Source of the DNA: Spisula solida
Taxonomy: Eukaryota > Mollusca > Bivalvia > Venerida > Mactridae
NCBI GenBank assembly: GCA_947247005.1
Contig: OX365955.1
Coordinates: 35,133,822 to 35,197,821 of the forward strand
DNA length: 64,000 nt
Direction: 5' to 3'
Below are positions 1,662-62,830 of this stretch, in pieces; the first letter of the stretch is position 1, and each line of letters opens with the position of its first letter. A program made the position numbers and the translations under genes. The notes beneath the pieces were generated by a model that was not told the DNA's origin, ran no database searches, and saw nothing but the letters and a program-made list of their open reading frames with translations.

Positions 1662-3224
1662 GTGGTTCGAAATTGTAAATGTGGCATGGAGGTAAAAAAT
1701 GAAGATAAAACACGTAAGAGGGATGATCCATATATAACCAATACACGAAGCCGATCTGTGTCAACCAAGTCTACTACACGAAACCGTTCAGTGTCGGTAA
1801 ATAGCACGAATCGAAAGTCACGTGGTCGACCGGCCAAACAGTCGACGACTGATACCAGTAGAAATTATTCGTGTGTGCGTACACAATCACGCTCAAAATC
1901 GCCGACTGATAGCGCACGAAATCATGTTCATAACAACGACGATACGGGTGGACCTCATTAGGACAGCGAGCGGCCTTCGATACACATTACTGACAATAAA
2001 AACATTAGATTCGCTGTATTGAACATCAATGGATTGATAACTAAATATCGTAATAAATTGAAATCACCAGAATTACAAAATATATTTAAAAACAATGGCA
2101 TTATTTGTTTCACGGAAACATGGGGATGCGAGCAGCATGGTTTTGACGATTTTGAACATTTTGAATTAAATAGAACTCACAAGCTTAAAGGTGCAACTCG
2201 CAATTCAGGAGGAATACTATTATATATCAGACGTTCGTATTTAAGCAGTCCAGATATAAATAATTGTATAACCATGACAACGTGTGATTCTCATATGTGG
2301 TTTAAACTGGAAAGAAAACTGTTTATATTTGATAAAGATTTGTTTGTATGTCTCTGCTATATTGTACCCTCAAACTCATCCAGAAACGTGTATGTTGATA
2401 GAAATGTTTATGATATTATTTCTGATGATATGATCAAATTGCAAAACTCGAGCAAAAGCGAGTCTTATTTTATGTTAGTTGGTGACCTTAATTCTAGAGT
2501 TGGTCAACTAACAGACTATGTTAGCAACGATAATGTATTTTTGATAGATCAGGGTGTATTGCCTGATGAATATTTAAACGACCGTGTATTGCCTAGAAGA
2601 TCACATGATTTTAGCTGTAACTCAAATGGACATTTGTTGATTGATTTTTTACGACAATCTGGTTAGCGTATTGCTAATTGTCGTGTGTGCGATGACCCGG
2701 GCCAATTTACATATGTAAGCAAGAATGGCTCTAGCGTGGTAGATTGTTGCATTGTAAATCAGGAATTACTAAATTATTTTTCGAACTTTCAAGTTCATAA
2801 CCCAAATATACTGTCTGATCATTGCTTGATAGAATTTTCGTTTATTGCAGGCGAACATTTTGATAGTATAAGTTCTTGTAATGTTGATAAGTCTTCTGTA
2901 GAAGATACTTATTCTAATTCAACTATGTACAATAAGTGGGATCCTAGTAGAAAGGACAGTTATGTACAACTTCTCCAATCGAGCGATTTTACACCGTTTA
3001 TTAATGACTTGTCTGATAATGTATCACGTGCTAACACATCACATGACATTGATTTTTCTATAAATAGATTCATTGAAAAGTTTAATGATGTATGTAAACC
3101 TTTATTCGGTAAGGTTTATAATTCTAATACTACGCGTAGCGGCCAATCGTCTGCTAATCTAGACAATCGATTAATTTTGATGATACGTGCAAATCAGCGC
3201 GACAGTCTTATTATAGTTGCCTAA
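1662..3224 (+). pseudogene. LINE ORF, N-terminal and endonuclease part, with stops
   Basis: A basic, Ser/Arg-rich segment (1662-1958) is followed by TAG at 1959-1961. The same frame resumes directly with the endonuclease: an NINGL start (~2025), CFTETW (~2107), LVGDLNSRVG (~2476) and SDHCLIEF (~2815). These are the usual metal-binding and catalytic landmarks of AP-endonuclease-type LINE domains. A second in-frame TAG lies at 2664-2666 inside the domain. The frame is lost between about 3180 and 3200. TAG 1959 could be a true ORF boundary, but no Met follows it before the endonuclease, so I favour a mutation. Confidence 0.75.
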
Positions 3225-3375
3225 ATGTGTACCGTCGTGATAAATCAGACATAAATCGAATAAACATGATAAATGCTCGCACTTTATATAAGAACTGTGT
3301 TAGACGTTTTAATTTTTCTATAAACAGCAGACGAACTGATAAATTGATGAAAGCAAAATCGACGAACGCCATCGG

Positions 3376-5447
3376 ATCCATTTTTCCAACCTGACGAAGA
3401 TGTCATACATTTTAACGAAAATTATTTAAATTCTAAGATTATGTTTGATGAATTGGATCTCCCATTCACTAGTAAAGGGGTTTCCGAATTATCATTAGGA
3501 CGCAGTGCAGGCCCTGATTGTATTTTAAATGAATTTTTAATTTATGGACATGGCACATTAGCGCCCTACTTTTTGGAATTGTTTAATAAAAGTTTAAGCC
3601 TTGGTTATTTCCCCGAGTCATGGGGCGAAGGATTTATAATTCCTTTACACAAAAAAGGTAGCGTTCATAATGTAAATAATTATAGGGGAATTACTTTACT
3701 TAGTACAATCGGTAAACTGTTTACACGATTAGTTAATAATAGATTGTCATATTGGGCGGAGGAGTATTATATTTATATTGAGGCACAAGCAGGCTTTAGA
3801 TCTAAAATGGGCACGTGTGACAATATTTTTGCTTTACATGGTCTTATTAATCATTAAATAAATAATAACAAGAAATTATATTGTGTTTTTATTGATTTCA
3901 GCGAAGCGTTTGATTATGTTGTTTATGAAAATATTTGGTATAAACTTATCAAACTTGGCATAAGGGGAAACCTGTTTAACGTAATCAAGTCAATGTACGA
4001 ATCGGTGAAATCTAGGGTTAAAATCAGAAACAAACTAGGAGAGAGCTTTGAGTGTTTACTTGGTGTTAGGCAAGGCGAATGTCTGAGCTCATTTTTATTT
4101 TCAATTCATATAAATGACCTTGAAGATGAACTGTTCAAAAACGGTTTTGAAGGCATAGATACAGGTTTTATGAAATTATATTTATTAATGTACGCCGATG
4201 ACATTGTCATACTTGCAGAATCTGCAGACAGTTTGCAGAAAGGTCTAAACATTTTAAACGAATATTGTAGTCGTTGGAAATTAAAAGTTAATAAAGAAAA
4301 AACTAAAGTAATTGTGTTTAGGAAAGGCGGTCCATTACCGAAAAATTTAAAGTTTTATTACGACAATACTATTTTGGAAATTGTTAGTAGATTTACTTAT
4401 CTAGGCATTGTATTTACATGCGGTGGCTCCTTTAATGAAACTCAGTTAGCATTATCTGGTCAAGCTAACAAGGGCATTTTCTTGTTTAAAAAATATTTGT
4501 CAAAATTCACCAACATTAGTATTCAACATTCGTTAGAACTATTTGATAAGCTTATTACACCAATTCTAAATTATGGTAGTCAGATTTGGGGCTTTCACAA
4601 AGCCATTCAAATAGAACGAGTGCATTTACAATTTTGCAAAAGTTTATTAGGTGTCAAAACTTCAACTCAAAATGATTTTGTTTATGGAGAACTGGGCAGA
4701 ATGGATCTACTAAGCACACGGCTATTTAATATCATTAAGTTCTGGTTGAAAATAATCATATCAAGCGCTAGAAAACTTATACGAATAATTTATAATGTTT
4801 TATTAACAGACATTGATAGACACCCGAATAAAAGCAACTGGGCTTCATTAGTAAGAGATATGTTAAATAACTTAGGATTTGGGGTTGTTTGGATATCACA
4901 AAGTGTAGGCAATTCCACAACATTTTTGTCAATTCTGAAAACACGCTTAAAAGATACGTTTATTCAAAATTGGAATTCCAGGTTATTTGATTCGAGCAGG
5001 GCATTATTTTACAGAAATTTTGATACTTTTGAGTTTAAAGAATATCTTAACATGGTAAACATTCCGAAATACAGAATTGCATTAACTCGATTGGGAGTGT
5101 CATCACACAGACTCAATATTGAGAGAGGCAGATGGCAACAGCCAAGCTTACCAATTAATGAACGCTTATGTCGTGTCTGCAACAAACTTGAAGACGAATA
5201 TCATTTCCTGTTTGAATGTGAACTTTATAAAGACCTGAGAATTACATACCTGAAACCATATTATCGCAATTGTTCAAGCATGTACAAAACTGTTGAACTA
5301 TTAAGATGTGAAAATAACAAAATCATTCGAAATCTAGCTGTATATGTTTTCAAAGCCTTCGAAGTTAAACAAAAAACGAGTGACAATTTACAATCGCTGC
5401 TTTGTTCGTTTGATAATTTTGTTTATATAACATGCAGTGTGCGTTAA
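3376..5447 (+). pseudogene. LINE reverse transcriptase part, one internal stop
   Basis: Reverse transcriptase that would copy the element RNA at a nicked target. Landmarks: SAGPD (~3505), the first catalytic Asp in FIDFSEAFD (3888-3914), GVRQGE (~4062) and YADD (4191-4202), followed by the thumb and a terminal CX2CX7HX4C motif (~5169-5219). One TAA (3855-3857) falls between the fingers and the first catalytic box. The pieces from 1662, 2019, 2685, 3441 and 3993 are all in one frame: two compensating frameshifts (near 3190 and 3340-3375) shift it and restore it. The break count is low, so decay is recent. Confidence 0.8.
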
Positions 5448-11127: not shown

Positions 11128-12106
11128 CAAGAGGGCCAAAATTGCCCTAGGTCGCTCACCTGTTGTAGCAGTACATGCAAGATTTGTGATTTGACCTAGT
11201 GACCTAGTTCTTTTTGACGCAATATCGCACTTGACCTAGATGTTGCGGAGATGTATACTCTGACCAAGTTTCATAAGGATTAGGCTAAAATTGTGACCAC
11301 TAGTGGCTATACGAGGTTTTTTAATGATTTGACCTAGTTTTTTACCCTAGATGACCCGATATCGAACATGACCTATATTTTGTTGTGATGATCATTGTGA
11401 CCAAGTTTCCTAAAGATTAGGTCAAAATTGTGACCTCTAGTGACTACACAAGGTTTCTATGATTTGACCTTGTGACCTAGTTTTTGAGACCGGATGATGC
11501 AATATCGAACATGACCTAGATTTTGTTGAGATGATCATTGTGACCAAGTTTAATAAAGATTAGGTCAAAATTGTGACCTGTAGTGAATACACAAGGTTTT
11601 TTTATTATTTGACCTTGTGACCTAGTTTTTGACCCGATATGACCCAATATCGAACTTGACCTAGATTTTAATGTGATGATCATTGTGACCAAGTTTCATA
11701 AAGATTAGGTCAAAATTGTGACCTCTAGTGACTACACAAAGTTTTTCTATAATTTGACCTTGTGACCTAGTTTTTGACCCCCGACAACCCAATATCCAAC
11801 TTGACCTAGATTTTGTTGAGATGATCATTGTGACCAAGTTTTATAAAGATGAGGTCAAAATTGTGACCTCTAATGACTACACAAGGTTTTCCTATGATTT
11901 AACCTTGTGACCTAGTTTTTGACCCCAGATGACCCAATATCGAACTTGACCTAGATTTTGCTAATATAATCATTGTGACCAAGTTTCATAATGATTAGGC
12001 CAAAATTGTGACCTCTAGTGTCTACACAAGCAAATTGTTGACGGCCGGACGACGGACGAAGAGTGATCATAAAAGCTCACCCTGTCACTTTGTGACAGGT
12101 GAGCTA
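11128..12106 (+). mobile_element. TGACCT-rich non-autonomous element, copy 1 (family A)
   Basis: Starts ACAAGAGGGCCAAAATTGCCC, then CGCTCACCTG. The core is about five ~145-bp tandem units containing GACCTAGTTTTTGACC, GATGATCATTGTGACC and AGGTCAAAATTGTGACCT. A GGACGACGGACG tract follows, then a terminal hairpin (12074-12105, AGCTCACC...GGTGAGCT). It sits wholly within the intron between the two transposase-like exons. No coding content. Confidence 0.75.
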
Positions 12107-21679: not shown

Positions 21680-24600
21680 CCCAGACACTCTAACACCCAG
21701 ACACACAAACACACAGACACTCTAACACCCAGACACACACAGACACCCAGACACACAAACACACAGACACTCTAACACCCAGACACACACAGACACCCAG
21801 ACACACAAACACCCAGACACACAAACACCCAGACACTCAAATACACAAACACACAAACACCCAGACACACAAGCACATAGACACACAGACACACAAACAC
21901 CCAGACACACAGACACACAGACACTCAAACACACAAACATCCAGACACACAAACACCCAGACACTCTAACACCCAGACACACAAGCACAGAGACACACAA
22001 ACACACACACACACAAACACACAGACACACAAACACACAGACACACAAACACACAGACACACAGACACACAAACACCCAGACACACAAACACACAGACAC
22101 ACAAACACCCAGACACACAAACACACAGACACACAAACACACAGACACACAAACACCCAGACACACAAGCACCCAGACACAAGCACACAGACACACAAAC
22201 ACACAAACACACAGACACACAAACACCCAGACACTCAAACACCCAGACACTCTAACACCCAGACACTCTAACACCCAGACACACAAACACACAGACACTC
22301 TAACACCCAGACACACAAACACACAGACACTCAAACACACAAACACACAGATACACAAACACACAGACACTCAAACACACAGACACACAAACACGCAGAC
22401 ACACAAACACACAGACACACACAGACACCCAGACACACTAACACCCAGACACACAAACACACAGACACTCTAACACCCAGACACACAAACACACAGACAC
22501 TCAAACACACAAACACACAGACACACAAACACCTAGACACACAAACACACAGACACTCTAAGACCCAGACACACAAACACAGAGACACTCAAACACACAG
22601 ACACACAAACACCAAGACACACAAACACACAAACACACAGACACACAAACACACAGACACACACAGACACCCAGACACTCTAACACCCAGACACACAAAC
22701 ACACAGACACTCTAACACCCAGACACACAAACACACAGACACTCTAACACCCAGACACACAAACACACAAACACACAAACATACATACACACAAACACCC
22801 AGACACACACAGACACCCAGACACTCTAACACCCAGACACACAAACACACAGACACTCTAACACCCAGACACACACAGACACCCAGACACACAAACACCT
22901 AGACACACAAACACCCAGACACTCAAATACACAAACACACAAACACCCAGACACACAAACACAAAGACACACACAGACACCCAGACACACAACCACAGAG
23001 ACACACAAACACACAGACACTCTAACACCCAGACACACAAACACACAGACACTCTAACACCCAGACACACAAACACACAGACACTCTAACACCCAGACAC
23101 ACAGACACTCCAACACCCAGACACACAGACACACACAGACACCCAGACACACAAACACACAGACACACAAACACACAAACACACAGACACACAAACACCC
23201 GGACACACAGACACACACAGAACCCAGACACACAAACACACAGACACTCAAACACACAAACACACAGACACACAAACACCTAGACACACAAACACACAGA
23301 CACTCTAACACCCAGACACACAAACACACAGACACTCAAACACACAGACACACAAACACCAAGAAACACAAACACACAAACACACAGACACACAAACACA
23401 CAGACACACACAGACACCCAGACACTCTAACACCCAGACACACAAACACACAGACACTCTAACACCCAGACACACAAACACACAGACACTCTAACACCCA
23501 GACACACAAACACACAGACACTCAAACACACAAACACACAGACACACAAACACCTAGACACACAAACACACAGACACTCTAAGACCTAGACACACAAACA
23601 CACAGACACTCAAACACACAGACACTCAAACACACAGACACACAAACACCAAGAAACACAAACACACAAACACACAGACAAACAAACACACAGACACACA
23701 CAGACACCCAGACACTCTAACACCCAGACACACAAACACACAGACACTCTAACACCCAGACACACAAACACACAGACACTCTAACACCCAGACACACAAA
23801 CACACAAACACACAGACACTCAAACACACAGACACACAAACACCCAGACACACAAACACACAAACACACAGACACACAAACACACATACACACACAGACA
23901 CCCAGACACTCTAACACCCAGACACACAAACACACAGACACACAAACACACAGACACACAAACACCCAGACACACAAACACACAGACACACACAGACACC
24001 CAGACACACAAACACCCAGACACACAAACACCCAGACACTCAAACACACAAACACCCAGACACACAAGCACCCAGACACACAAGCACACAGACACACAAA
24101 CACACAAACACACAGACACACAAACACCCAGACACACAGACACACACAGACACCCAGACACTCTAACACCCAGACACACAAACACTAAGACACTCTAACA
24201 CCCAGACACACACAGACACCCAGACACACAAACACACAGACACTCTAACACCCAGACACACACAGACACCCAGACACACAAACACCCAGACACACAAACA
24301 CCCAGACACACAGACACTCAAACACACAAATATCCAGACACACAAACACCTAGAAACTCTAACACCCAGACACACAAGCACACAGACACACAAACACCCA
24401 GACACACAAACACACACACACACAAACACACAGACACACAAACACACAGACACACAAACACCCAGACACACAAACACACAGACACACAAACACCCAGACA
24501 CACAAACACACAGACACACAAACACCCAGACACACAAGCACCCAGACACACAAGCACACAGACACACAAACACACAAACACACAGACACACAAACACCCA

Positions 24601-26930
24601 GACACTCAAACACCCAGACACTCTAACACCCAGACACTCTAACACCCAGACAAACAAACACACAGACACTCTAACACCCAGACACACACAAACACACAGA
24701 CACTCAAACACACAAACACACAGACACACAAACACACAAACACACAGACACTCAAACACACAAACACACAGACACACAAACACCCAGACACACAAACACA
24801 CAAACACACAGACACACAAACACACAGACACACACAGACACCCAGACACTCTAACACCCAGACACACAAACACACAGACACTCTAACACCCAGACACACA
24901 AACACACAGACACTCTAACACCCAGACACACAAACACACAGACACTCAAACACACAAACACACAGACACACAAACACCTAGACACACAAACACACAGACA
25001 CTCTAAGACCTAGACACACAAACACACAGACACTCAAACACACAGACACTCAAACACACAGACACACAAACACCAAGAAACACAAACACACAAACACACA
25101 GACAAACAAACACACAGACACACACAGACACCCAGACACTCTAACACCCAGACACACAAACACACAGACACTCTAACACCCAGACACACAAACACACAGA
25201 CACTCTAACACCCAGACACACAAACACACAAACACACAGACACTCAAACACACAGACACACAAACACCCAGACACACAAACACACAAACACACAGACACA
25301 CAAACACACATACACACACAGACACCCAGACACTCTAACACCCAGACACACAAACACACAGACACACAAACACACAGACACACAAACACACAGACACACA
25401 AACACCCAGACACACAACCACACAGACACACAAACACACAGACACTCTAACACCCAGACACACAAACACACAGACACTCTAGCACCCAAACACACAAACA
25501 CACAGACACTCTAACACCCAGACACACAGACACTCAAACACCCAGACACCCAGACACACACAAACACCCAGACACACACAAACACCCAGACACACACAGA
25601 CACCCAGACACACAAACACCCAGACACACAAACACCCAGACACTCAAACACACAAACACCCAGACACACAAGCACCCAGACACACAAGCACACAGACACC
25701 CAGACACACAAGCACCCAGACACACAAGCACACAGACACACAGACACACACAGACACCCAGACACTCTAACACCCAGACACACAAACACACAGACACTCT
25801 AACACCCAGACACACACAGACACCCAGACACACAAACACACAGACACTCTAACACCCAGACACACACAGACACCCAGACACACAAACACCCAGACACACA
25901 GACACTCAAACACACAAATATCCAGACACACAAACACCTAGAAACTCTAACACCCAGACACACAAGCACACAGACACACAAACACCCAGACACACAAACA
26001 CACACACACACAAACACACAGACACACAAACACACAAACACACAGACACACAAACACCCAGACACACAAACACACAGACACACAAACACCCAGACACACA
26101 AACACACAGACACACAGACACACAAACACCCAGACACACAAGCACCCAGACACACAAGCACACAGACACACAAACACACAAACACACAGACACACAAACA
26201 CCCAGACACTCAAACACCCAGACACTCTAACACCCAGACACTCTAACACCCAGACACACAAACACACAGACACTCTAACACCCAGACACACACAAACACA
26301 CAGACACTCAAACACACAAACACACAGACACACAAACACACAAACACACAGACACTCAAACACACAAACACACAGACACACAAACACCCAGACACACAAA
26401 CACACAGACACACAAACACACAGACACACACAGACACCCAGACACTCTAACACCCAGACACACAAACACACAGACACTCTAACACCCAGACACACAAACA
26501 CACATACACTCAAACACACAAACACACAAACACACAGACACACACACACCCAGACACACAAACACACAGACACTCTAAGACCCAGACACACAAACACACA
26601 GACACCCAGACACTCTAACACCCAGACACTCTAACACCCAGACACACAAACACACAGACACACAAACACACAAACACACAGACACACAAACACCCAGACA
26701 CACAAACACACAGACACACAGACACACACAGACACCCAGACACTCTAACACCCAGACACACAAACACACAGACACTCTAACACCCAGACACACACAGACA
26801 CCCAGACACACAAACACCCAGACACACAAACACCCAGATACTCAAACACACAAACACCCAGACACACAAGCGCACAGACACACAAACACACAAACACCCA
26901 GACACACAAACACACAGACACTCTAACACT
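21680..26930. repeat. 5.25-kb degenerate octamer array (CA-rich strand)
   Basis: Built from 8-bp words of the form nnnnACAC, mainly CAGACACA, CAAACACA, CCAGACAC and CTCTAACA, with occasional 4-bp phase slips. Large internal duplications are visible. The rare strings AAGAAACAC and CTCTAAGACCTAG recur 1,424 bp apart (23,577 and 25,001; 23,651 and 25,075), and TATCCAG with CTAGAAACTC recur 1,588 bp apart (24,331 and 25,919). The plus strand is almost free of G runs; the minus strand is G/T-rich with GGG triplets. Long minus-strand frames rich in Val-Cys-Leu are a by-product of the repeat. Confidence 0.95.
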
Positions 26931-42127: not shown

Positions 42128-42762
42128 TGTATCAAACGTCCTTAACCCAACTTCAAACTTGACCTTAAGGTCATCAAGATACACATTTTGACCATACATC
42201 ACGAAGATTAAAGCAAAAATGTGGCCCCCAGAGTGTTAACAAAGTTTTCCTATTATATGGCCTTTTGACCTAGTTTTTGACCCAACGTGACCCAACTTTG
42301 AACTTGAACTTAAGGTCACCAAGATAAACATAAACCAAACTTCATGAAGATTAAAGCAAAAATGTGGCCACCAGAGTGTTAACAAGGTTATCCTATTATT
42401 TGACCTTTTGACCTAGTTTTTGACCCCACATGACCCAACTTCAAACTTGACCTAGATGTTATTGAGAAACAACTACTGACCAAGTTTGGTGAAGATCAAA
42501 GCAAGAATGTGACCTCCAGTGTTAACAAGGTTTCGCTATTATTTGACCTTTTGACCTAGTTTTCGACCCCAAATGACCCAACTTCGAACTTGACCTAGAT
42601 TTCATTGAGATACAACTATTGACTAAGTTTGGTGAAGATCAAAGCAAAATTGAAAGTGCTAGAGTGTTAACGGTGAATTGTGTAACGGACTGACAGACGG
42701 ACAGACGACGGACAAAAAACAATCACAAAAGCTTACCTTGCCACATCGTGGCAGGTGAGCTT
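42128..42762 (+). mobile_element. Family B element, 5' part degraded
   Basis: Core units with CTTGACCTTAAGGTCATCAA and GTTTTTGACCC, a CGGACAGACGACGGAC tract, and a final hairpin with GGCAGGTGAGC. The usual opening AAGAGGxCC is missing. Confidence 0.6.
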
Positions 42763-43389: not shown

Positions 43390-43737
43390 TCAGCTGTCTT
43401 CAGTCAACTTATTCACACTATCTTCTTTCATTTCAAATAAAGAACAATTTTCACTCGTCCTTTGACAAATATCATACGCTGTTTCACCAAGATTGTTTTT
43501 AAGTTTCACATTCACATTTTTGTCATTGAGGAGTAACTCTAAACATTGTCGGCATTCCCTGTCTGAGGATGCTATATGTAACGCAGTCTGTCCGCTGTTG
43601 GTTTGAGCATTGACATCAGCATCATGCTGTAACAAGATATTCACCACATCAGCCTGGTTCCATCGTGATGCACTGTGTAATGCTTGCCAACCATCTATTG
43701 TTTTAGCACCGATATTAGCATCATTTTGTAGTAGGAG
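43390..43737 (-). CDS. ANKRD49: ANKRD49, last coding exon
   Basis: Minus-strand exon after acceptor TTTCTACTATCAG; ends in TGA (43390-43392). It encodes 115 residues: the remainder of one ankyrin repeat (LLLQNDANIGAKTIDGW), full repeats ALHSASRWNQADVVNILLQHDADVNAQ and TALHIASSDRECRQCLELLL, and a non-ankyrin tail with LKNNLGETAYDI and SLFEM. This repeat order and tail match vertebrate ANKRD49, a small ankyrin protein of ~240 residues in which the same LKNNLEETAFDI-type tail occurs. The role in animals is poorly defined. Joins the 56.1-kb exon in phase 0 across a 12.3-kb intron. Confidence 0.9.
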   Translation of the reverse strand, partial: LLLQNDANIGAKTIDGWQALHSASRWNQADVVNILLQHDADVNAQTNSGQTALHIASSDRECRQCLELLLNDKNVNVKLKNNLGETAYDICQRTSENCSLFEMKEDSVNKLTEDS

Positions 43738-46545: not shown

Positions 46546-47029
46546 TAGAAAGGACCACCCAAGGAACATTCTTACCAATTTATAATGAAATCCAACAAGT
46601 ACTTTCAGACAAGAAGATTTTTAAAGATTTTCTCTAGATATATAGGGAAAAACGAGCCCCGCCCACTGGCGGCCATGTTTTTTGATGAATCACGAGAAAA
46701 ATGTCAATTTTGTAAGAGGGCCACTCAAGAACTATTTCTGTAAAATTATTTTGAAATCTGGACATAGGTTAATTTTTAAGGATTTTTTAAAGATTTCCCT
46801 ATCGGTTGCCATGGCAACCAGAGTTATTTATAGATTACAATTATTTTAGCTATACTTAGAAAGAACCACCCAAGGAACATTCCTGTGAAGTTTGGTTGAA
46901 ATTGGCCAAGTGGTTTAGGAGGAAATGTTGTTTGAATGAATTGTTGACGCACATACGCTTGGACACACGACCGACGGATGAAGAGCGATCACAATAGCTC
47001 ACCTTGTCACTATGTGACAGGTGAGTTAA
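46546..47029 (+). repeat. Family D copy 1 end and copy 2, with RFX-like palindrome
   Basis: Copy 1 ends in AAGGAACATTCTTACC. Copy 2 starts near 46584 (GAAATCCAACAAGTACTTT) and contains GGTTGCCATGGCAACC (46804-46819), an exact palindrome matching the consensus X-box bound by RFX factors. The end is GACGGATGAAGAGCGATCAC plus hairpin CTCACCTTGTCAC...GTGACAGGTGAG. Confidence 0.6.
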
Positions 47030-47146: not shown

Positions 47147-48516
47147 AACAAGAGGGCCCAAAGGGCCCTAGGTCGCTCACCTGTCGAATTTAACCTAGAT
47201 TTTGTTAAGATGATCATTGTGACCAAGTTTTATACAGATTAGGCAAATATTGTGACCTCTAGTGACTACAAAAGGTTTTTATATTTGACCTAATGACCTA
47301 GTTTTTGACCCCAGATAAACCAATATCGAACTTGACCTAGATTGTGTTGAGATGATCATTGTGACCAAGTTTCGTAAAGATCAGGCCAAAACTGTGACCT
47401 CTAGTGACTACACAAGGTTTTTCTATTATTTGACCTTGTGACCTAGTTTTTGACCCCAGATGACCCAATATCATACTTGATCTAGATTTTTTTTAGATGA
47501 TCATTGTGACCGAGTTTAATAAAGATTAGACCAAAATTGTGACCTCTAGTGACTACGCAAGGTATTTCTATGATTTGACCTTGTGACCTAGTTTTTGACC
47601 CCAGATGACCCATTATCGAACTCGACCTAGATTTTGTTGTTATGATCATTGTGACTAAGTTTCGTAAAGATCAGGCCAAAACTGGGACCTCTAGTGACTA
47701 CACAAGGTTTTTCTATGATTTGATCTTGTGACCTAGTTTTTGACCCCGGATGACCCAATATCAAACTTGACCTAGATTTGGTTGTGTAGATCATTGTGAC
47801 AAAGTTTCGTAAAGATTATGCTAAAACTGTGACCTCTAGTGACTACACAAGGTTTTTCTATGATTTGACCTTGTAACCTAGTTTTTGACCCCAGATGACC
47901 CATTATCGAACTTGACCTAGATTTTGTTGAGATGATCATTGTGACCAAGTTTCATAAAGACTAGGTCAAAATTGTGACCTCTAGTGACTACACAAGGTTT
48001 ATCTATGATTTGACCTTGTGACCTAGTTTTTGACCCCGGATGACCCAATATCGAACTTGACCTAGATTTTGTTGAGATGATCATTGTGACCAAGTTTCAT
48101 AAAGATTAGGCTCAAATTGCGACCTCTAGTGTGTTCACAAGCTTTTTCAATGATTTGGCCTCGTGACCTAGTTTTTAACCCCAGATGACCCAATATCGAA
48201 CTTGACCTAGATTTTATAGAGATGATCATTGTGATCAAGTTTCATAAAGATTAGGCTCAAATTGTGACCTCTAATGTGTTCACAAGGTTTTCCTTTGATT
48301 TGGCCTAGTGACCTAGTTTTTGACCCCAGATGACCCAATATCGAACTTGACCTAGATTGTATGAAGATGATCATTGTGATCAAGTTTCATATTGATCAGG
48401 CTAAATTTGTGACCTATAGTGTGTTCACAAGCAATTGTGAACGGACGGACGGACGGACGACGACGGACGAAGAGCGATCACAAAAGCTCACCTTGTCACA
48501 AAGTGACAGGTGAGCT
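47147..48516 (+). mobile_element. Family A element, full length, ~9 core units
   Basis: Starts ACAAGAGGGCCCAAAGGGCCC (a hairpin), then GGTCGCTCACCTGTCG. Core units recur every ~145 bp (GACCTAGTTTTTGACC at 47294, 47439, 47584 and on). It ends GGACGGACGGACGGACG, AAGAGCGATCAC and the terminal hairpin AGCTCACC...GGTGAGCT (to 48516). The layout is left arm, tandem core, ACGG tract, terminal hairpin. It recalls the pearl / HINE-type elements described in oysters and clams. Confidence 0.75.
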
Positions 48517-54601: not shown

Positions 54602-55821
54602 ATAAGAGGGCCCAAAGGGCCCTAGGTCACTCACCTGTCGAACTTGATCTAGATTTTGTTAAGATGATTATTGTGACAAAGTTTCATACAGATTAGGTCA
54701 AAATTGTGACATCAAGTGACTACACAAGGTTTGTATGATTTTACCTAATGACCTAGTTTTTGACCCTGTACGACCCAATATCGAACTTGACCTAAATTTT
54801 GTTGAGATGATCATTGTGACAAAGTTTCATAAAGATCAGATCAAAAGTGTGACCTTCTATTATTTTACCATGTGACCTAGTTTTAGACCTCGGATGACCC
54901 AATATCGGACTTTGCCAAGATTTTGTTGAGATAATCATTGTGACCCAGTTTCATAAAGATTAGGCCATAATTGAGACCTCTGGTGACTACACAGGGTTTT
55001 TCTAATATGTGACCATGTGACCTAGTTTTTGAACCCGGATGACCCAATATCGAACTTTGACAAGATTTTGTTGACATGATCATTGTGACCAAGTTTTCAT
55101 AAATATTAGGTCAAATTGTGACCTCTAGTGACTACACAAGTTTTTTCTAAGATTTAACCTTGGGACCTAGTTTTTGAACCCTGATAACCCAATATCAAAC
55201 TTGACCTAGATTTTGTTGAGATGATCATTGTGACAAAGTTTCATAAATATTAGGTCAAAATAGTGACCTCTAGTGACTACACAATGTTTTTCTATGATTT
55301 GACCTTGTGACCTAGTTTTTCACCCAGGATGACCCAATATCAAACTTGACCTAGATTTTGTTGAGATGATCATTGTGACCAAGTTTCATAAAGATTAGTT
55401 CAAAATTGTGACCTCTAGTGACTACACAAGGTTTTTCTATGATTTGACCTTGTGACCTGACCTAGTTTTTGACCCTGGATGACCCAATATCGAACTTGAC
55501 CTAGATTTTGTTGAGATGATCATTGTGATCAAGTTTCATAAAGATTAAGTCAAAATTGTGACCTTTTAGTGACTACACAAGGTTTTTCAATAATTTGACC
55601 TTGTGACCTAGTTTTTGACCCCGAATGACCCAATATCAAACTTGACCTAGATTTTGTTGAGATGATCATTGTGACCAAGTTTCATAAAGATTAGGCCAAA
55701 ATTGTGACCTCTAGTGTCTACATAAGCAAATTGTTGACTGACGGGACGGACGAAGGACGGACGAATGACGGACGAATAGTGTTCACAAAAGCTCACTCTG
55801 TCACTTTGTGACAGGTGAGTT
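54602..55821 (+). mobile_element. Family A element, full length, ~8 core units
   Basis: Opens AAGAGGGCCCAAAGGGCCC and CACTCACCTGTCG, has ~145-bp core units, a GACGGACGAAGGACGG tract and the terminal hairpin CTCACTCTGTCAC...GTGACAGGTGAG. One unit has an extra GACCT (TGTGACCTGACCTAG, ~55453), a small internal duplication. Confidence 0.75.
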
Positions 55822-56033: not shown

Positions 56034-56194
56034 ATCAACCATCTGTGTATGTCCATTGTATGAGGCTCGATGTAGTGGAGTATAACCATCATTATCTACA
56101 CAAGCGACAAGCTGGCAGTCTGAACTCACTAACTCAAGTACAGTATCTCTGTGATTGTTCTCTGCAGCCCATAACATTTTCTTTCCTGGATCCT
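56034..56194 (-). CDS. ANKRD49: ANKRD49, middle coding exon
   Basis: Minus-strand exon of 161 nt between acceptor GTATATGTTGTAG (before 56194) and donor GAT|GTGAGT (after 56034). After two bases that complete a Lys codon, it encodes DPGKKMLWAAENNHRDTVLE... and DNDGYTPLHRASYNGHTQMVD, i.e. the pre-ankyrin WAAE segment and the first full TPLH repeat. Phase 1 at the start and phase 0 at the end both fit the neighbouring exons. Residue order is as in ANKRD49 from vertebrates. Confidence 0.92.
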
Positions 56195-56229: not shown

Positions 56230-56806
56230 TAAACAAGAGGGCCATTGGCCCTAAAGAACTCACCTGATAACTAGCAGTACCGGCAGAATCAGTATTTGTT
56301 ATGATATGACCTTGATATTTGATGCAGATTTTACAAATACACACTTTGTCGCCAGGTTTTATAAAAATGAGGTAAAAAATGTGACCTCTGGAGTATAAAC
56401 AAGTTTTTTTTTGATGCCATCTGGTGACATAGTTTTCAACACCACATGACCCAACTTCAAACGTGACCTTAAAGTCATCAAGATAAACATTTTGACCAAA
56501 CTTCATGAAGGTTAAAGCACAAATGTAGCCTCCAGAGTGTTAACAATTTTTTGCTATTATTTGACCTATTGACCTAGTTTTTGACCCCACATGACCAAAC
56601 TTCAAACTTGACTTTAAGTACACCAAGATAAACATTATGACAAAACTTGATGAAGATTAAAGCGAAAATGTGACCTCTGGAGTGTTAACAAAGTTCTCCT
56701 ATTATTTGACCTTTTGACCTAGTTTTTGACTCCACATGACCCAACTTAGATCTTGATCTAGATTTCATTGAGATACAACTACTGAATAAGTTTGGTGAAG
56801 TTCAAT
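56230..56806 (+). mobile_element. Family B element, 3' end missing
   Basis: Starts ACAAGAGGGCCATTGGCCC and AACTCACCTG; core units with CAAACGTGACCTTAAAGTC and CAGAGTGTTAACA. It stops at TTCAATAAAA, where the next element begins, without ACGG tract or hairpin. Confidence 0.6.
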
Positions 56807-56807
56807 A

Positions 56808-57420
56808 AAACAAGAGGGCCATGAGGGCCCTGAATCTCTCACCTGAATCACTTTGCTCATGATATTTTTATATATGAAACTGTAGCCTCTTAAAGAAGAC
56901 AAGTGTCCTAAATTTGAGAAAGGACCTTATTAGAATGCTACAGACCAACTTTTATGAAGATCCATCATGCGGTTCAAGAGAAGAAGTCTTTTAAAAAAAA
57001 TCTATTCTTAGGTGTAGCGGCCTGTATTAAGGACCAAGTGCCCTCATTTGAAAAAAGTTCAGAAAGGACTTTTTAGATATGCTACAGACCAAGTTTGATG
57101 AAAAATACAGTCTCTATTGCATATACAAGCTTTATCTATGATATGACCTAGTGACCTAGTTTTTGAACCCAGTTGACCCATATACAATCCCAACCTAGAT
57201 TTCATCAAGACAAACATTCTGACCAATCCTTACAAAAATCAAATGAAAAATATGCCCTCTATGCAAACAAAAGGTGTTTCTAAGATGTAGCCTAGTGACC
57301 TAGCTTTTGGTCCCACTTGATCCATATAAAATCCAGACCAACCTAGATTTCACCAAGACAATCACTCTGACCAAATTTCATAAATATCTAATGTTAACTA
57401 CAGCCTCTATCATCATCATA
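56808..57420 (+). repeat. Family C element
   Basis: Starts ACAAGAGGGCCATGAGGGCCC, then CTCTCACCTGAATCAC. The body has GATATGACCTAGTGACCTAG and CATCAAGACAAACATTCTGACC. The terminal hairpin is absent; family D follows directly, so C and D may be the two halves of one longer element. Confidence 0.5.
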
Positions 57421-57777
57421 GTGAAATCCAACCAGTACTTTTAGCGGAGAAGACTTTTAAAGATTTTACTATAGATACATAGGGAAAAACAGCGCCCCAG
57501 CCACTGGCCGCCATGTTTTTTAATGAATCATGACAAAAATGTCAATTTTGTAAGGTCACCCAACGACTCTTTCTGTAAAATTATTTTGAAATCTAGCCAG
57601 CGGTTGATTTTTAAGATTTTTAAAAAGATTTTCCTGATGGTTGCCATGGCAACCAGAGTTATTTATAGATTAAAATTATTTTAGCTATTTTTAGGAAGGA
57701 CCACCCAAGGAACATTCCTGTGAAGTTTGGTTGAAAGTGGCCATGTGTTTTAGGAGGATAAGTCGTTTGAATGAATT
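57421..57777 (+). repeat. Family D element, copy 3, with RFX-like palindrome
   Basis: GAAATCCAACCAGTACTTTT, CCGCCATGTTTTTTAATG, AATGTCAATTTTGTAAG, GGTTGCCATGGCAACC (57639-57654) and CCACCCAAGGAACATTCC, in the same order as copy 2. It ends at the border of the 30-bp minisatellite. Confidence 0.65.
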
Positions 57778-57778
57778 G

Positions 57779-60700
57779 CGCTTACCTGTATGTCCTCCAC
57801 ACTTCCTTACTTACTCTGTATGTCCTCCACACTCTCTTACTTACTCTGTATGTCCTCCACACTCTCTAACTTACTCTGTATGTCCTCCACACTCTCTAAC
57901 TTACTCTGTATGTCCTCCACACTCTCTAACTTACTCTGTATGTCCTCCACACTCTCTAACTTACTCTGTATGTCCTCCACACTCTCTTACTTACTCTGTA
58001 TGTCCTCCACACTCTCTAACTTACTCTGTATGTCCTCCACACTCTCTTACTTACTCTGTATGTCCTCCACACTCTCTTACTTACTCTGTATGTCCTCCAC
58101 ACTCTCTTACTTACTCTGTATATCCTCCACACTCTCTTACTTACTCTGTATGTCCTCCACACTCTCTTACTTACTCTGTATGTCCTCCACACTCTCTTAC
58201 TTACTCTGTATGTCCTCCACACTCTCTAACTTACTCTGTATGTCCTCCATTCTCTCTTACTTACTCTGTATGTCCTCCACACTCTCTTACTTACTCTGTA
58301 TGTCCTCCACACTCTCTTACTTACTCTGTATGTCCTCCACACTCTCTAACTTACTCTGTATGTCCTCCACACTCTCTTACTTACTCTGTATGTCCTCCAC
58401 ACACTCTAACTTACTCTGTATGTCCTCCACACTCTCTAACTTACTCTGTATGTCCTCCATTCTCTCTTACTTACTCTGTATGTCGTCCACACTCTCTTAC
58501 TTACTCTGTATGTCCTCCACACTCTCTAACTTACTCTGTATGTCCTCCACACTCTCTTACTTACTCTATATGTCCTCCAAACTCTCTTACTTACTCTGTA
58601 TGTCATCCACACTCTCTTACTTACTCTGTATGTCCTCCACACTCTCTAACTTACTCTGTATGTCCTCCACACTCTCTTACTTACGCTGTATGTCCTCCAT
58701 TCTCTCTTACTTACTCTGTATGTCTTCCACACTCTCTTACTTACTCTGTATGTCCTCCAAACTCTCTTACTTACTATGTATGTCCTCCACACTCTCTTAC
58801 TTACTCTGTATGTCCTCCACACTCTCTAACTTACTCTGTATCTCCTCCACACTATCTTACTTACTCTACTCTGTATGTCCTCCACACCTTCTAACTAACT
58901 CTGTATGTCCTCCACACTCTCTAACTTACTCTGTAGCTCCTCCACACTCTCTAACTTACTCTGTATGTGCTCCACACCATCTAACCTACTCTGTATGTGC
59001 TCCACACCCTCTAACTTACTCCGTATGTCCTACACACCCTCTAACTTACTCAGTATGTGCTCCACACTCTCTAACTTACTCTGTATGTGCTCGACACCCT
59101 CTAACTTACTCTGTATGTGCTCCACACCCTCTAACTTACTCTGTATGTCCTCCACACCCTCTAACTTACTCTGTATGTCCTCCACACTCTCTAACTTACT
59201 CTGTATCTCCTCCACACTCTCTAACTTACTCTGTATCTGCTCCACACTCTCTTACTTACTCTGTATGTGCTCCACACACTCTAACTTACTCTGTATGTCC
59301 TCCACACCCTCTAACTTACTCTGTATGTGCTCCACACTCTCTAACTTACTCTGTATGTGCTCCACACTCTCTTACTTACTCTGTATGTCCCCCCACCTCT
59401 TACTTACTCTGTATGTCCTCCATTCTCTATTACTTACTCTGTATGTCCTCCATACTCTCTAACTTACTCTGTATGTCCTCCATTCTCTCTTACTTACTCT
59501 GTATGTCCCCCACACTCTCTTATTTACTCTGTATGTCCCCCACACTCTCTAACTTACTCTGTATGTCCTCCACACTCTCTAACTTACTCTATATGTCCTG
59601 CACACTCTCTTACTCTACTCTGTATCTCCTCCACACTCTCTAACTTACTCTGTATGTCCTCCACACTCTCTTACTTACTCTGTATGTCCTCCACACTCTC
59701 TAACTTACTCTGTATGTCCTCCACACTCTCTAACTTACTCTGTATGTCCTCCACACTCTCTTACTTACTCTGTATGTCCTCCACACTCTCTAACTTACTC
59801 TGTATGTCCTCCACACTCTCTTACTTACTCTGTATGTCTTCCACACTCTCTTACTTACTCTGTATGTCCTCCACACTCTCTAACTTACTATGTATGCCCT
59901 CCATTCTCTCTTACTTACTCTGTATGTCCTCCAAACTCTCTTACTTACTCCGTATGTCCTCCAAACTCTCTTACTTACTCTGTATGTCCTCCACACCCTC
60001 TAACTTACTCTGTATGTGCTCCACACTCTCTTACTTACTCTGTATCTCCTCCACACCCTCTAACTTACTCTGTATGTCCTCCACACTCTCTTACTTACTC
60101 TGTATGTGCTCCACACACTCTAACTTACTCTGTATGTCCTCCACACCCTCTAACTTACTCTGTATGTGCTCCACACTCTCTAACTTACTCTGTATGTCCT
60201 CCACACTCTCTTACTCACTCTGTATGTCCTCCACACTCTCTTACTTTCTCTGCTCTGTATGTCCTCCACACTCTCTAACTTACTCTACTCTGTATGTCCT
60301 CCACACTCTCTAACTTACTCTGTATGTACTCCACACCACTCTCTAACTTACTCTGTATGTACTCCACACTCTCTAACCCTCTCTATATGTCCTCCAAACT
60401 CTTACTTACTCTGTATGTACTCCACACTCTCTTACTTACGCTGTATGTCCTCCACACTCTCTTACGTACTATGTATGTCCTCCACACTCTCTTACTTCCT
60501 CTATTTGTCCTCCAAACTCTTACTTACTCTATATGTCCTGCACACTCTCTTACTTACGCTGTATGTCCTCCACACTCTCTTACTTACTATGTATGTCCTC
60601 CACACTCTCTTACTTCCTCTATTTGTCCTCCAAACTCTCTTACTTACTCAGTATGTCCTCCACACTCTCTAACTTACTATGTATGTCCTCCACACTCTCT

Positions 60701-62134
60701 AACTTACTCTGTATGTCCTCCACACTCTCTAACTTACTCTGTATGTCCTCCACACTCTCTTACTTCCTCTATTTGTCCTCCAAACTCTCTTTCTTACTCA
60801 GTATGTCCTCCACACTCTCTAACTTACTATGTATGTCCTCCACACTCTCTAACTTACTCTGTTTGTCCTCCACACTCTCTTACTTACTCTGTATGTCCCC
60901 CCCCCACCTCTTACTTACTCTGTATGTCCTCCATTCTCTCTTACTTACTCTGTATGTCCTCCATACTCTCTAACTTACTCTGTATGTCCTCCACACTCTC
61001 TAACTTACTCTGTATGTCCTCCACACTCTTTAACTTACTCTGTATGTCCTCCACACTCTCTTACTTACTCTGTATGTCCCCCCACCTCTTACTTACTCTG
61101 TATGTCCTCCATTCTCTCTTACTTACTCTGTATGTCCTCCATACTCTCTAACTTACTCTGTATGTCCTCCATTCTCTCTTACTTACTCTGTATGTCCTCC
61201 ATACTCTCTAACTTACTCTGTATGTCCTCCATTCTCTCTAACTTACTCTGTATGTCCTCCATACTCTCTAACTTACTCTGTATGTCCTCCATTCTCTCTT
61301 ACTTACTCTGTATGTCCTCCATACTCTCCAACTTACTCTGTATGTCCTCCACACTCTCTAACTTACTCTGTATGTCCTCCACGCTCTTTAACTTACTCTG
61401 TATGTCCTCCAAACTCTCTTACTTACTCTGTATGTCCCCCACCTCTTACTTACTCTGTATGTCCTTCATTCTCTCTTACTTACTCTGTATGTCCTCCATA
61501 CTCTCTAACTTACTCTGTATGTCCTCCATTCTCTCTTACTTACTCTGTATGTCCTCCATACTCTCTAACTTACTCTGTATGTCCTCCATTCTCTCTTACT
61601 TACTCTGTATGTCCTCCACACTCTCTAACTTACTCTGTATGTCCTCCACACCTCTTACTTACTCTGTATGTCCTCCATTCTCTCTTACTTACTCTGTATG
61701 TCCTCCATACTCTCTAACTTACTGTGTATGTCCTCCATTCTCTCTTACTTACGCTGTGTGTCCTCCACACTCTTTAACTTACTCTGTATGTCCTCCACAC
61801 TCTCTTACTTACTCTGTATGTCCTCCACAATCTCTAACTTACTCTGTATGTCCTCCAAACTCTCTTACTTACTCTGTATGTCCTCCACAATCTCTAACTT
61901 ACTCTGTATGTCCTCCACACTCTCTTACTTACTATGTATGTCCTCCACAATCTCTAACTTACTCTGTATGTCCTCCAAACTCTCTTACTTACGCTGTATG
62001 TCCTCCAAACTCTCTTACTTACTCTGTATGTCCTCCACACTCTCTTACTTACTCTGTATGTCCTCAACACTCTCTAACTTACTCTGTATGTCCTCCACAC
62101 TCTCTTACTTACTCTGTATGTCCTCCATACTCTC
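57779..62134 (-). repeat. 30-bp minisatellite of an exon/splice-donor junction (~145 units)
   Basis: On the minus strand the unit is GTGGAGGACATACAGAGTAA followed by GTAAGAGAGT. Its upstream end merges with the last 22 nt of the ANKRD49 exon at 62113-62209, and the splice donor A|GTAAGT is part of nearly every unit. Two main variants differ in one base: AGTAAGTAAGAG (stop in the exon frame) and AGTAAGTTAGAG (open, SKLESVEDIQ per unit). Sub-blocks recur, such as CCCCACCTCTTAC at 59391, 60902, 61080 and 61438, and GTGCTCCACAC units at 58967-59380. The long plus-strand frames are artefacts. Confidence 0.95.
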
Positions 62135-62209
62135 CTCTTCTATGTCTTCCTCATCCATCTCCCAGTAACTTGGAAAGTTATTCGGGTCTCGCCTCTTGGC
62201 TTCAAATAT
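62113..62209 (-). CDS. ANKRD49: ANKRD49, upstream coding exon (not the first)
   Basis: Minus-strand exon of 97 nt: acceptor ATATATATTTTAG before 62209, donor CAGA|GTAAGTAAG after 62113. It encodes IFEAKRRDPNNFPSYWEM then a run of Glu/Asp and SMEDIQ. One base plus the AG of the next exon makes Lys, giving IQKDPGKKMLWAAE, as expected from the family. Together the three exons give 201 residues; the vertebrate protein is ~240, so an N-terminal exon should lie upstream, perhaps beyond the window. The last 22 nt of this exon are the founder of the 30-bp minisatellite. Confidence 0.85.
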
Positions 62210-62272: not shown

Positions 62273-62830
62273 AAACAAGAGGATCATAGATCCTGGAGCG
62301 CTCACCTGCTAAACATGCCCCAAACTTTGAACTTGACCTTAAGGTCATCAAGATAAACATTTTGACTAAACTTGATGAAGGTTAAAGCAAAACTGAGGCC
62401 TCCAGAGTGTTAAGAAGGTTTTGCTATTATTTGACATATTGATCTAGTTTTTACCCACATGACCCAACTTCAAACCTGACCTTAAGGTTATCAAGATAAA
62501 CATTTTAACCAAAGTTGATGAAGATTAAAGCAAAAATATGGCCTCAAGAGTGTTAATAAGATTTTTCTATTATTTGACCAATTGACCTAGTTTTTGACCC
62601 CACATGAACCAACTTCAATCTTGAACTTTAGGTCATCAATATACACATTTTGACCAAACTTCTTGAAGATTGAAGCAAAAATGTGGCCTCCAGAGTGTTA
62701 ACAGATTTTCCTATTTTTTTACCTAGTTTTTGACACCGCATGACCCAACTTCAAACGTGACCTTAAGGTAATCAAGATAAACATTTTGACCAAAGTCGAT
62801 GAAGATTAAAGCATAAATATGGCCTCAAGG
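62273..62830 (+). mobile_element. Family B element, 3' end missing
   Basis: Opens ACAAGAGGATCATAGATCC, CGCTCACCTGC. Core units contain TTGACCTTAAGGTCATCAAG (62333-62352) and CAGAGTGTTAA. It fades after GGCCTCAAGGTAATAAACC without tract or hairpin. Confidence 0.6.

Follow-up and report, generated by a model that had tools for sequence, protein, structure and literature searches.

A minisatellite of about 145 units built from the exon end and 5' splice site of a putative ANKRD49 gene in the bivalve Spisula solida

The closest described counterparts of the locus reported here are human repeats located at exon ends. CBS carries a 31-bp VNTR at the exon 13/intron 13 boundary, named c.1444_1467+7(16_21), with 16-21 copies (PMC2630376). 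Its longer alleles have been reported with lower CBS activity (Lievers et al. 2001, as cited in PMC2630376 and PMC5188458), and it is tabulated elsewhere with a query mark near its expression effect (PMC1395315). IFI6 (6-16, G1P3) harbors a minisatellite with multiple splice donors, two downstream units of which are used (PMC4526556); the original report is that of Turri et al. 1995 (cited in PMC3618361, PMC2572611, and PMC2915984). In human segmental duplications, repeats situated at exon-intron boundaries account for 27 documented intron modifications, the variable repeats averaging 30-bp units and ~4 copies (PMC2812944). Intron gain by tandem genomic duplication is described in the potato RdRp gene (PMC4974935), and a further VNTR is said to act via splicing (PMC6692358).

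The stretch of Spisula solida DNA analysed here (64,000 nucleotides, hereafter the window) contains a 30-bp minisatellite that begins inside a predicted ANKRD49 exon on the minus strand (exon A) and occupies 73% of the intron that follows. TRF (score 6806) delimits it at 57781-62134 and counts 144.9 copies with 90% matches and 1% indels. The features of the locus are listed below, a slash marking an exon-intron boundary.

62113..62209, minus strand: predicted ANKRD49 exon A, 97 nt, IFEAKRRDPNNFPSYWEMDEEDIEEESMEDIQ plus 1 nt; acceptor TTTTAG upstream; its 22 terminal nt form the beginning of the repeat unit
62107..62112, minus strand: authentic donor GTAAGT (CAGA/GTAAGTAAG), phase 1, giving the sole intact 201-aa frame among 132 GTAAGT sites
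62105..62107, minus strand: in-frame TAA past the first donor (MEDIQSK, then stop), from virtual splicing
57779..62134, minus strand: 30-bp minisatellite of ~145 units, sense unit GAGAGTGTGGAGGACATACAGA/GTAAGTWA
57778..57785, minus strand: donor-like GTAAGCGC of the last unit, after CAG, with one A fewer than the other units and the top matrix score of the array (7.35)
57418..57778, plus strand: copy of a dispersed element adjoining the exon-distal array end, identical to 46582-46943 in 314 of 364 columns
56034..56194, minus strand: predicted ANKRD49 exon B, acceptor TTGTAG/AGGATCC, donor GTGAGT
43390..43737, minus strand: predicted last coding exon of ANKRD49 (exon C), to TGA, from tblastn and virtual splicing

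The unit is composed of the 22 terminal bases of the exon and 8 intron nucleotides that include the 5' splice site. At the exon end it reads GAGAGTATGGAGGACATACAGA/GTAAGTAA, and the usual sense unit is GAGAGTGTGGAGGACATACAGA followed by either GTAAGTAA or GTAAGTTA. These A and T forms number 74 and 70, respectively, in an alignment of 144 units that leaves aside the leading fragment as well as the last unit, which is divergent. A 23-base core, searched with up to three mismatches, is found 137 times in the window, always on the minus strand and within 57810-62130, where 100 dinucleotide shuffles predict 0 matches. The GTAAGT hexamer is present 132 times on the array's minus strand (30.3 per kb) versus 7 times in the other 59.6 kb of that strand (0.12 per kb); the plus strand of the array has none. 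It is in register in 131 of the 144 aligned units, and successive sites are spaced by exactly 30 nucleotides in 115 of 131 intervals. TRF, the core matches, and the unit alignment concur with an earlier note on this DNA, which had described a 30-bp unit of 22 exon-end nucleotides plus donor, repeated ~145 times into the intron. The uniform CAGA/donor unit it proposed holds for the typical units, which carry GTAAGT, but not for the division into two forms nor for the last unit, CAG/GTAAGCGC. This last unit, CAG/GTAAGC at 57785, adjoins the dispersed element; it may be what remains of an older donor. No strong higher-order repeat emerges among the 144 units, identity by lag being almost flat, and some blocks of 3-4 units recur. 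A regular alternation of TAA and TTA units is rejected (72 transitions vs 71.9 expected), and plus-strand ORFs of 399, 622, and 478 residues within the array are probably a product of the 30-bp period with few stops. Rfam returns 0 matches at gathering score within the window.

When exons A, B, and C are joined, they yield 201 codons and then a stop, with the frame unbroken. The encoded protein is 76% identical to a Ruditapes philippinarum ANKRD49-like protein over 100% of the 201-aa query (E 5.2e-95); a Mactra antiquata protein shares 75% identity with it and a Mercenaria one 73%. Homology along the protein thus places it in ANKRD49, in agreement with the earlier assignment; the intact ORF and canonical splice sites would fall short of proof of expression. 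In tblastn, Ruditapes and Mya proteins match exon A at 62209-62114, and a Mactra protein at 62209-62162. No N-terminal exon carrying the start codon was found within the window, where clam N-termini give weak short matches only, among the matches listed; it may lie beyond 64000. The window protein was aligned with 19 of 120 listed homologues (342 in total), among which EESMEEIQK(D/N/H)P is common to Ruditapes, Mactra, Mercenaria, Mya, and one further protein. The last base of exon A is 62113 and the donor G is 62112. The phase-1 join CAG A/AG GAT encodes the K of IQKDP, and this column is occupied in 19/19 aligned homologues (11 K, 7 N, 1 R), which supports a phase-1 intron with its donor at 62112. 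This in-frame splice supports the position that the earlier note had given to the authentic donor. The array-coded peptides EDIQSK, VEDIQ, IQSK, and ESVED occur in 0 of the 120 homologues listed out of 342.

The exon end ESMEEIQ is present in Ruditapes, Mactra, Mercenaria, and Mya. Being conserved in clams, it is older than the array, so that the exon would be the source of the repeat rather than its product; the exon-end origin initially suggested for the unit gains support from this conservation. On the evidence of the sequence, tandem duplication multiplied the 22 terminal exon nucleotides and the 5' splice site to ~145 copies within the intron. Units in the exon's own ATG state number 10 of 144, exon unit included, and cluster toward the exon (mean index 30.2 vs 71.4 expected, P=0.0004 under random placement, a control that takes the units as independent, an assumption that copying violates). 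Divergence from the consensus amounts to 0.8-2.8% of sites in the three exon-distal blocks versus 2.5-7.8% in the other nine; hence, the most recent growth probably took place at the exon-distal end. The second copy of the dispersed element that adjoins this end, at 46582-46943, is followed by a different sequence after a shared ATTG.

Other repeats populate the window. A second large tandem array extends over 5.2 kb at 21682-26929 (period 16, consensus CAGACACACAAACACA, 330.9 copies, 81% matches by TRF). Arrays of similar 143-145 bp units are located at 11215-12030, 42145-42649, 47184-48421, 54855-55726, 56375-56747, and 62313-62829 (TRF); the second intron holds two of these, and the intron of the donor array one. 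Four long plus-strand ORFs follow in series at 1962-2666, 2667-3224, 3351-3857, and 3858-5447, which, judged by eye, resemble an endonuclease and a reverse transcriptase from a non-LTR retrotransposon that is broken up. Upstream of them, at 925-1312, is a 99-bp tandem repeat.

The consequence of using a later donor was followed by virtual splicing, in which each of the 132 GTAAGT sites was joined to exons B and C, the overlapping GTAAGAG sites being left out. The 201 codons remain intact from 62112 only. The other 131 donors lead to a TAA stop at codon 35, because reading through the first donor meets the TAA at 62105-62107. The later GTAAGT copies are thus a run of predicted "poison" donors. 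By the usual rule of nonsense-mediated decay, a stop well upstream of an exon junction makes a transcript a target. The B-C junction lies well downstream of codon 35, and such transcripts would, therefore, be targets. No plausible acceptor is found in the array, as the best of its 962 AG dinucleotides has 40% pyrimidine in the 20 preceding nucleotides (55% for the exon B acceptor, 65% for that of exon A), and the array would consequently supply donors alone. The idea that it acts as a splice-site decoy is plausible on these predictions, and is sharpened by them since 131 of 132 GTAAGT donors would be unproductive.

The explanation towards which we lean, with some reserve, is a tolerated exon-intron-boundary minisatellite with some unproductive splicing that costs the gene output by copy number. 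The array would lower gene output in proportion to its number of units, like the reported human CBS VNTR, without being selected for that. The first donor would be the productive one, as the sole GTAAGT site that joins exon B in frame according to virtual splicing and to the orthologues, and the other 131 GTAAGT sites would be equivalent donors bringing in an in-frame stop. Exon A is short, and with its only plausible acceptor just upstream it would mostly be defined by the nearest donor, leaving a working gene. We infer that some transcripts would leak to the donors of later units and undergo nonsense-mediated decay. When identical donors compete, the intron-proximal one is often favoured. 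This preference would predict leakage beyond what a functioning gene can afford, and counts against the tolerated-repeat explanation.

The alternative that survives best, possible although rather unlikely, is a passive intronic minisatellite: the first donor takes all the splicing, the other copies are silent, and array length is without consequence. The absence of any clear selection on the donors agrees with it. GTAAGT is intact in 91.0% of the 144 units, a value that six random columns match in 5.7% of draws (P=0.057). Four overlapping hexamers fare better (GTAAGA and AAGTAA, 93.1%; TAAGAG, 92.4%; AGTAAG, 91.7%) and one equally well (TAAGTA, 91.0%), all sharing columns with the donor. There may nevertheless be mild constraint, as the best hexamer without a donor column, ACATAC, is intact in 88.2%; mean column variation is 1.7% in the donor vs 4.9% in the others. 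There is no purging near the exon either, the first 12 units (authentic one included) having 12/12 donors intact, and the ORF is intact, both as expected of a passive repeat, but comparable human arrays are reported to affect splicing or activity. The donors would thus appear neither clearly kept nor purged, and their neutral look speaks against a selected function and, to a mild degree, against a large cost. That the array is a length-tunable splicing sink, in which more than 100 equal poison donors after the single productive one set the yield of ANKRD49 mRNA, heritably variable from individual to individual via copy-number turnover, is in our estimation improbable.

Exon A and the first five units (61960-62209) fold more stably than shuffled sequences (z -2.75, 3 of 200 as stable). 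A short hairpin, GUAUG...CAUAC, precedes several donors in the same segment. A kept unit hairpin is not relied on, since stem variants, by eye, often break pairs.

The strength of the donors was estimated with an approximate human consensus matrix. The typical units and the authentic donor, all with A at -1 and G at -2, score 2.8, the exon B donor 3.9, and the last unit 7.35. Sites scoring at least 4 number 2 in the array (0.46 per kb) versus 28 on the rest of the strand (0.47 per kb). In units of the TAA type, an overlapping GTAAGAG lies 4 nt further on and scores 2.05 in the first unit. In RNA duplex prediction, the first donor pairs with the U1 5' end at -10.4 kcal/mol, one A being bulged out (CAG-a-GTAAGTA), and the last unit at -11.5; 59 sites are at -10.4 and 57 at -8.8 kcal/mol, two classes that presumably correspond to the TAA and TTA forms. 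Calling the units U1 sites would, therefore, seem fair, and calling them strong consensus donors would not. The earlier note's count of over a hundred tandem U1 donors stands with the 132 GTAAGT sites, but most are weak by the approximate human matrix, which lifts only 2 array sites to 4 or above. As the exon-distal CAG/GTAAGC outscores the authentic donor (7.35 vs 2.8), donor strength does not account for use of the first donor, a point against the favoured explanation.

The weakness of the authentic donor, at 2.8 and with its A at -1 and G at -2, is what an enhancer would remedy: many U1 sites and GGAGGA motifs beside it would raise the local density of U1 and SR proteins and aid exon definition. 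GGAGGA is an SR-protein motif, and 114 copies are present in the sense array. Such a role is very unlikely, however, as conservation is not clearly higher in the donor columns than elsewhere in the unit and nothing shows a need for it. An assembly artefact or a non-functional gene copy is extremely unlikely, given 64 distinct unit types among 144 units, a window without any N, and an ORF intact over three exons. The probability is close to negligible for telescripting or U1 titration, the proposals that the array protects the transcript against premature polyadenylation or ties up U1. It would add 131 U1-complementary sites to one pre-mRNA, and an ATTAAA is located at 57524, ~255 nt past the array, but the sense-strand intron holds 0 AATAAA and this single ATTAAA, which lends little support to the suppression of premature polyadenylation. 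U1 ranks with the most plentiful RNAs of the nucleus, and one locus with ~131 sites would be too few to deplete it, making titration implausible on numbers. Finally, it is scarcely conceivable that the true donor is the last unit's CAG/GTAAGC and the array exonic: this site has the top matrix score of the array, and its CAG end with the alternative acceptor TAGAG/GAT is in frame, but the read crosses the in-frame TAA at 62105-62107 and the join drops a residue present in 19/19 aligned homologues.

The anatomy of the array is that of the CBS VNTR. In both, an exon end and its donor are repeated into the intron (24+7 bases in CBS, its name read literally, and 22+8 here), and in the array the first unit overlaps the authentic exon end while the rest are intronic. 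The two differ in scale, with 16-21 copies versus ~145, ~7 times the largest CBS number found (21), and in reading, since the 31-bp CBS unit shifts the frame whereas the 30-bp unit keeps it but adds a stop. The CBS VNTR is also polymorphic, with a reported activity effect, whereas the present array is known from one assembly's sequence alone. IFI6 likewise has tandem units at an exon end that carry donors. Its units are 12 bp long and in open frame. Extra donors would, therefore, add residues in IFI6, whereas here they add a stop. The repeats of human segmental duplications share with this array a unit of ~30 bp and a position at exon-intron boundaries; those of the duplications alter splicing, have ~4 copies on average, and give novel introns, whereas an existing intron is lengthened here (PMC2812944). 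In potato RdRp, tandem duplication is also tied to splice sites, but the outcome there is a new intron, whereas the present one has, by its sequence, been lengthened (PMC4974935). In intron gain, both splice sites lie inside the unit; the array has no plausible acceptor, and that of exon B is 1.6 kb past it. The open-licence literature yielded no published case of an array of this scale, no work on ANKRD49 in molluscs, and no matching study of competing 5' splice sites. The view that no such case had been described holds, as far as searched, for the scale, but not for the kind, because the CBS 31-bp VNTR and IFI6 share the anatomy. With 132 near-identical donors behind one acceptor, the first alone productive, the locus offers a natural test of 5' splice-site choice, and of how far a gene tolerates repeat growth across its own splice site. 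It extends to a mollusc gene a repeat type of human medical genetics (CBS): the kind is already known from CBS and IFI6, and the scale and the host are new.
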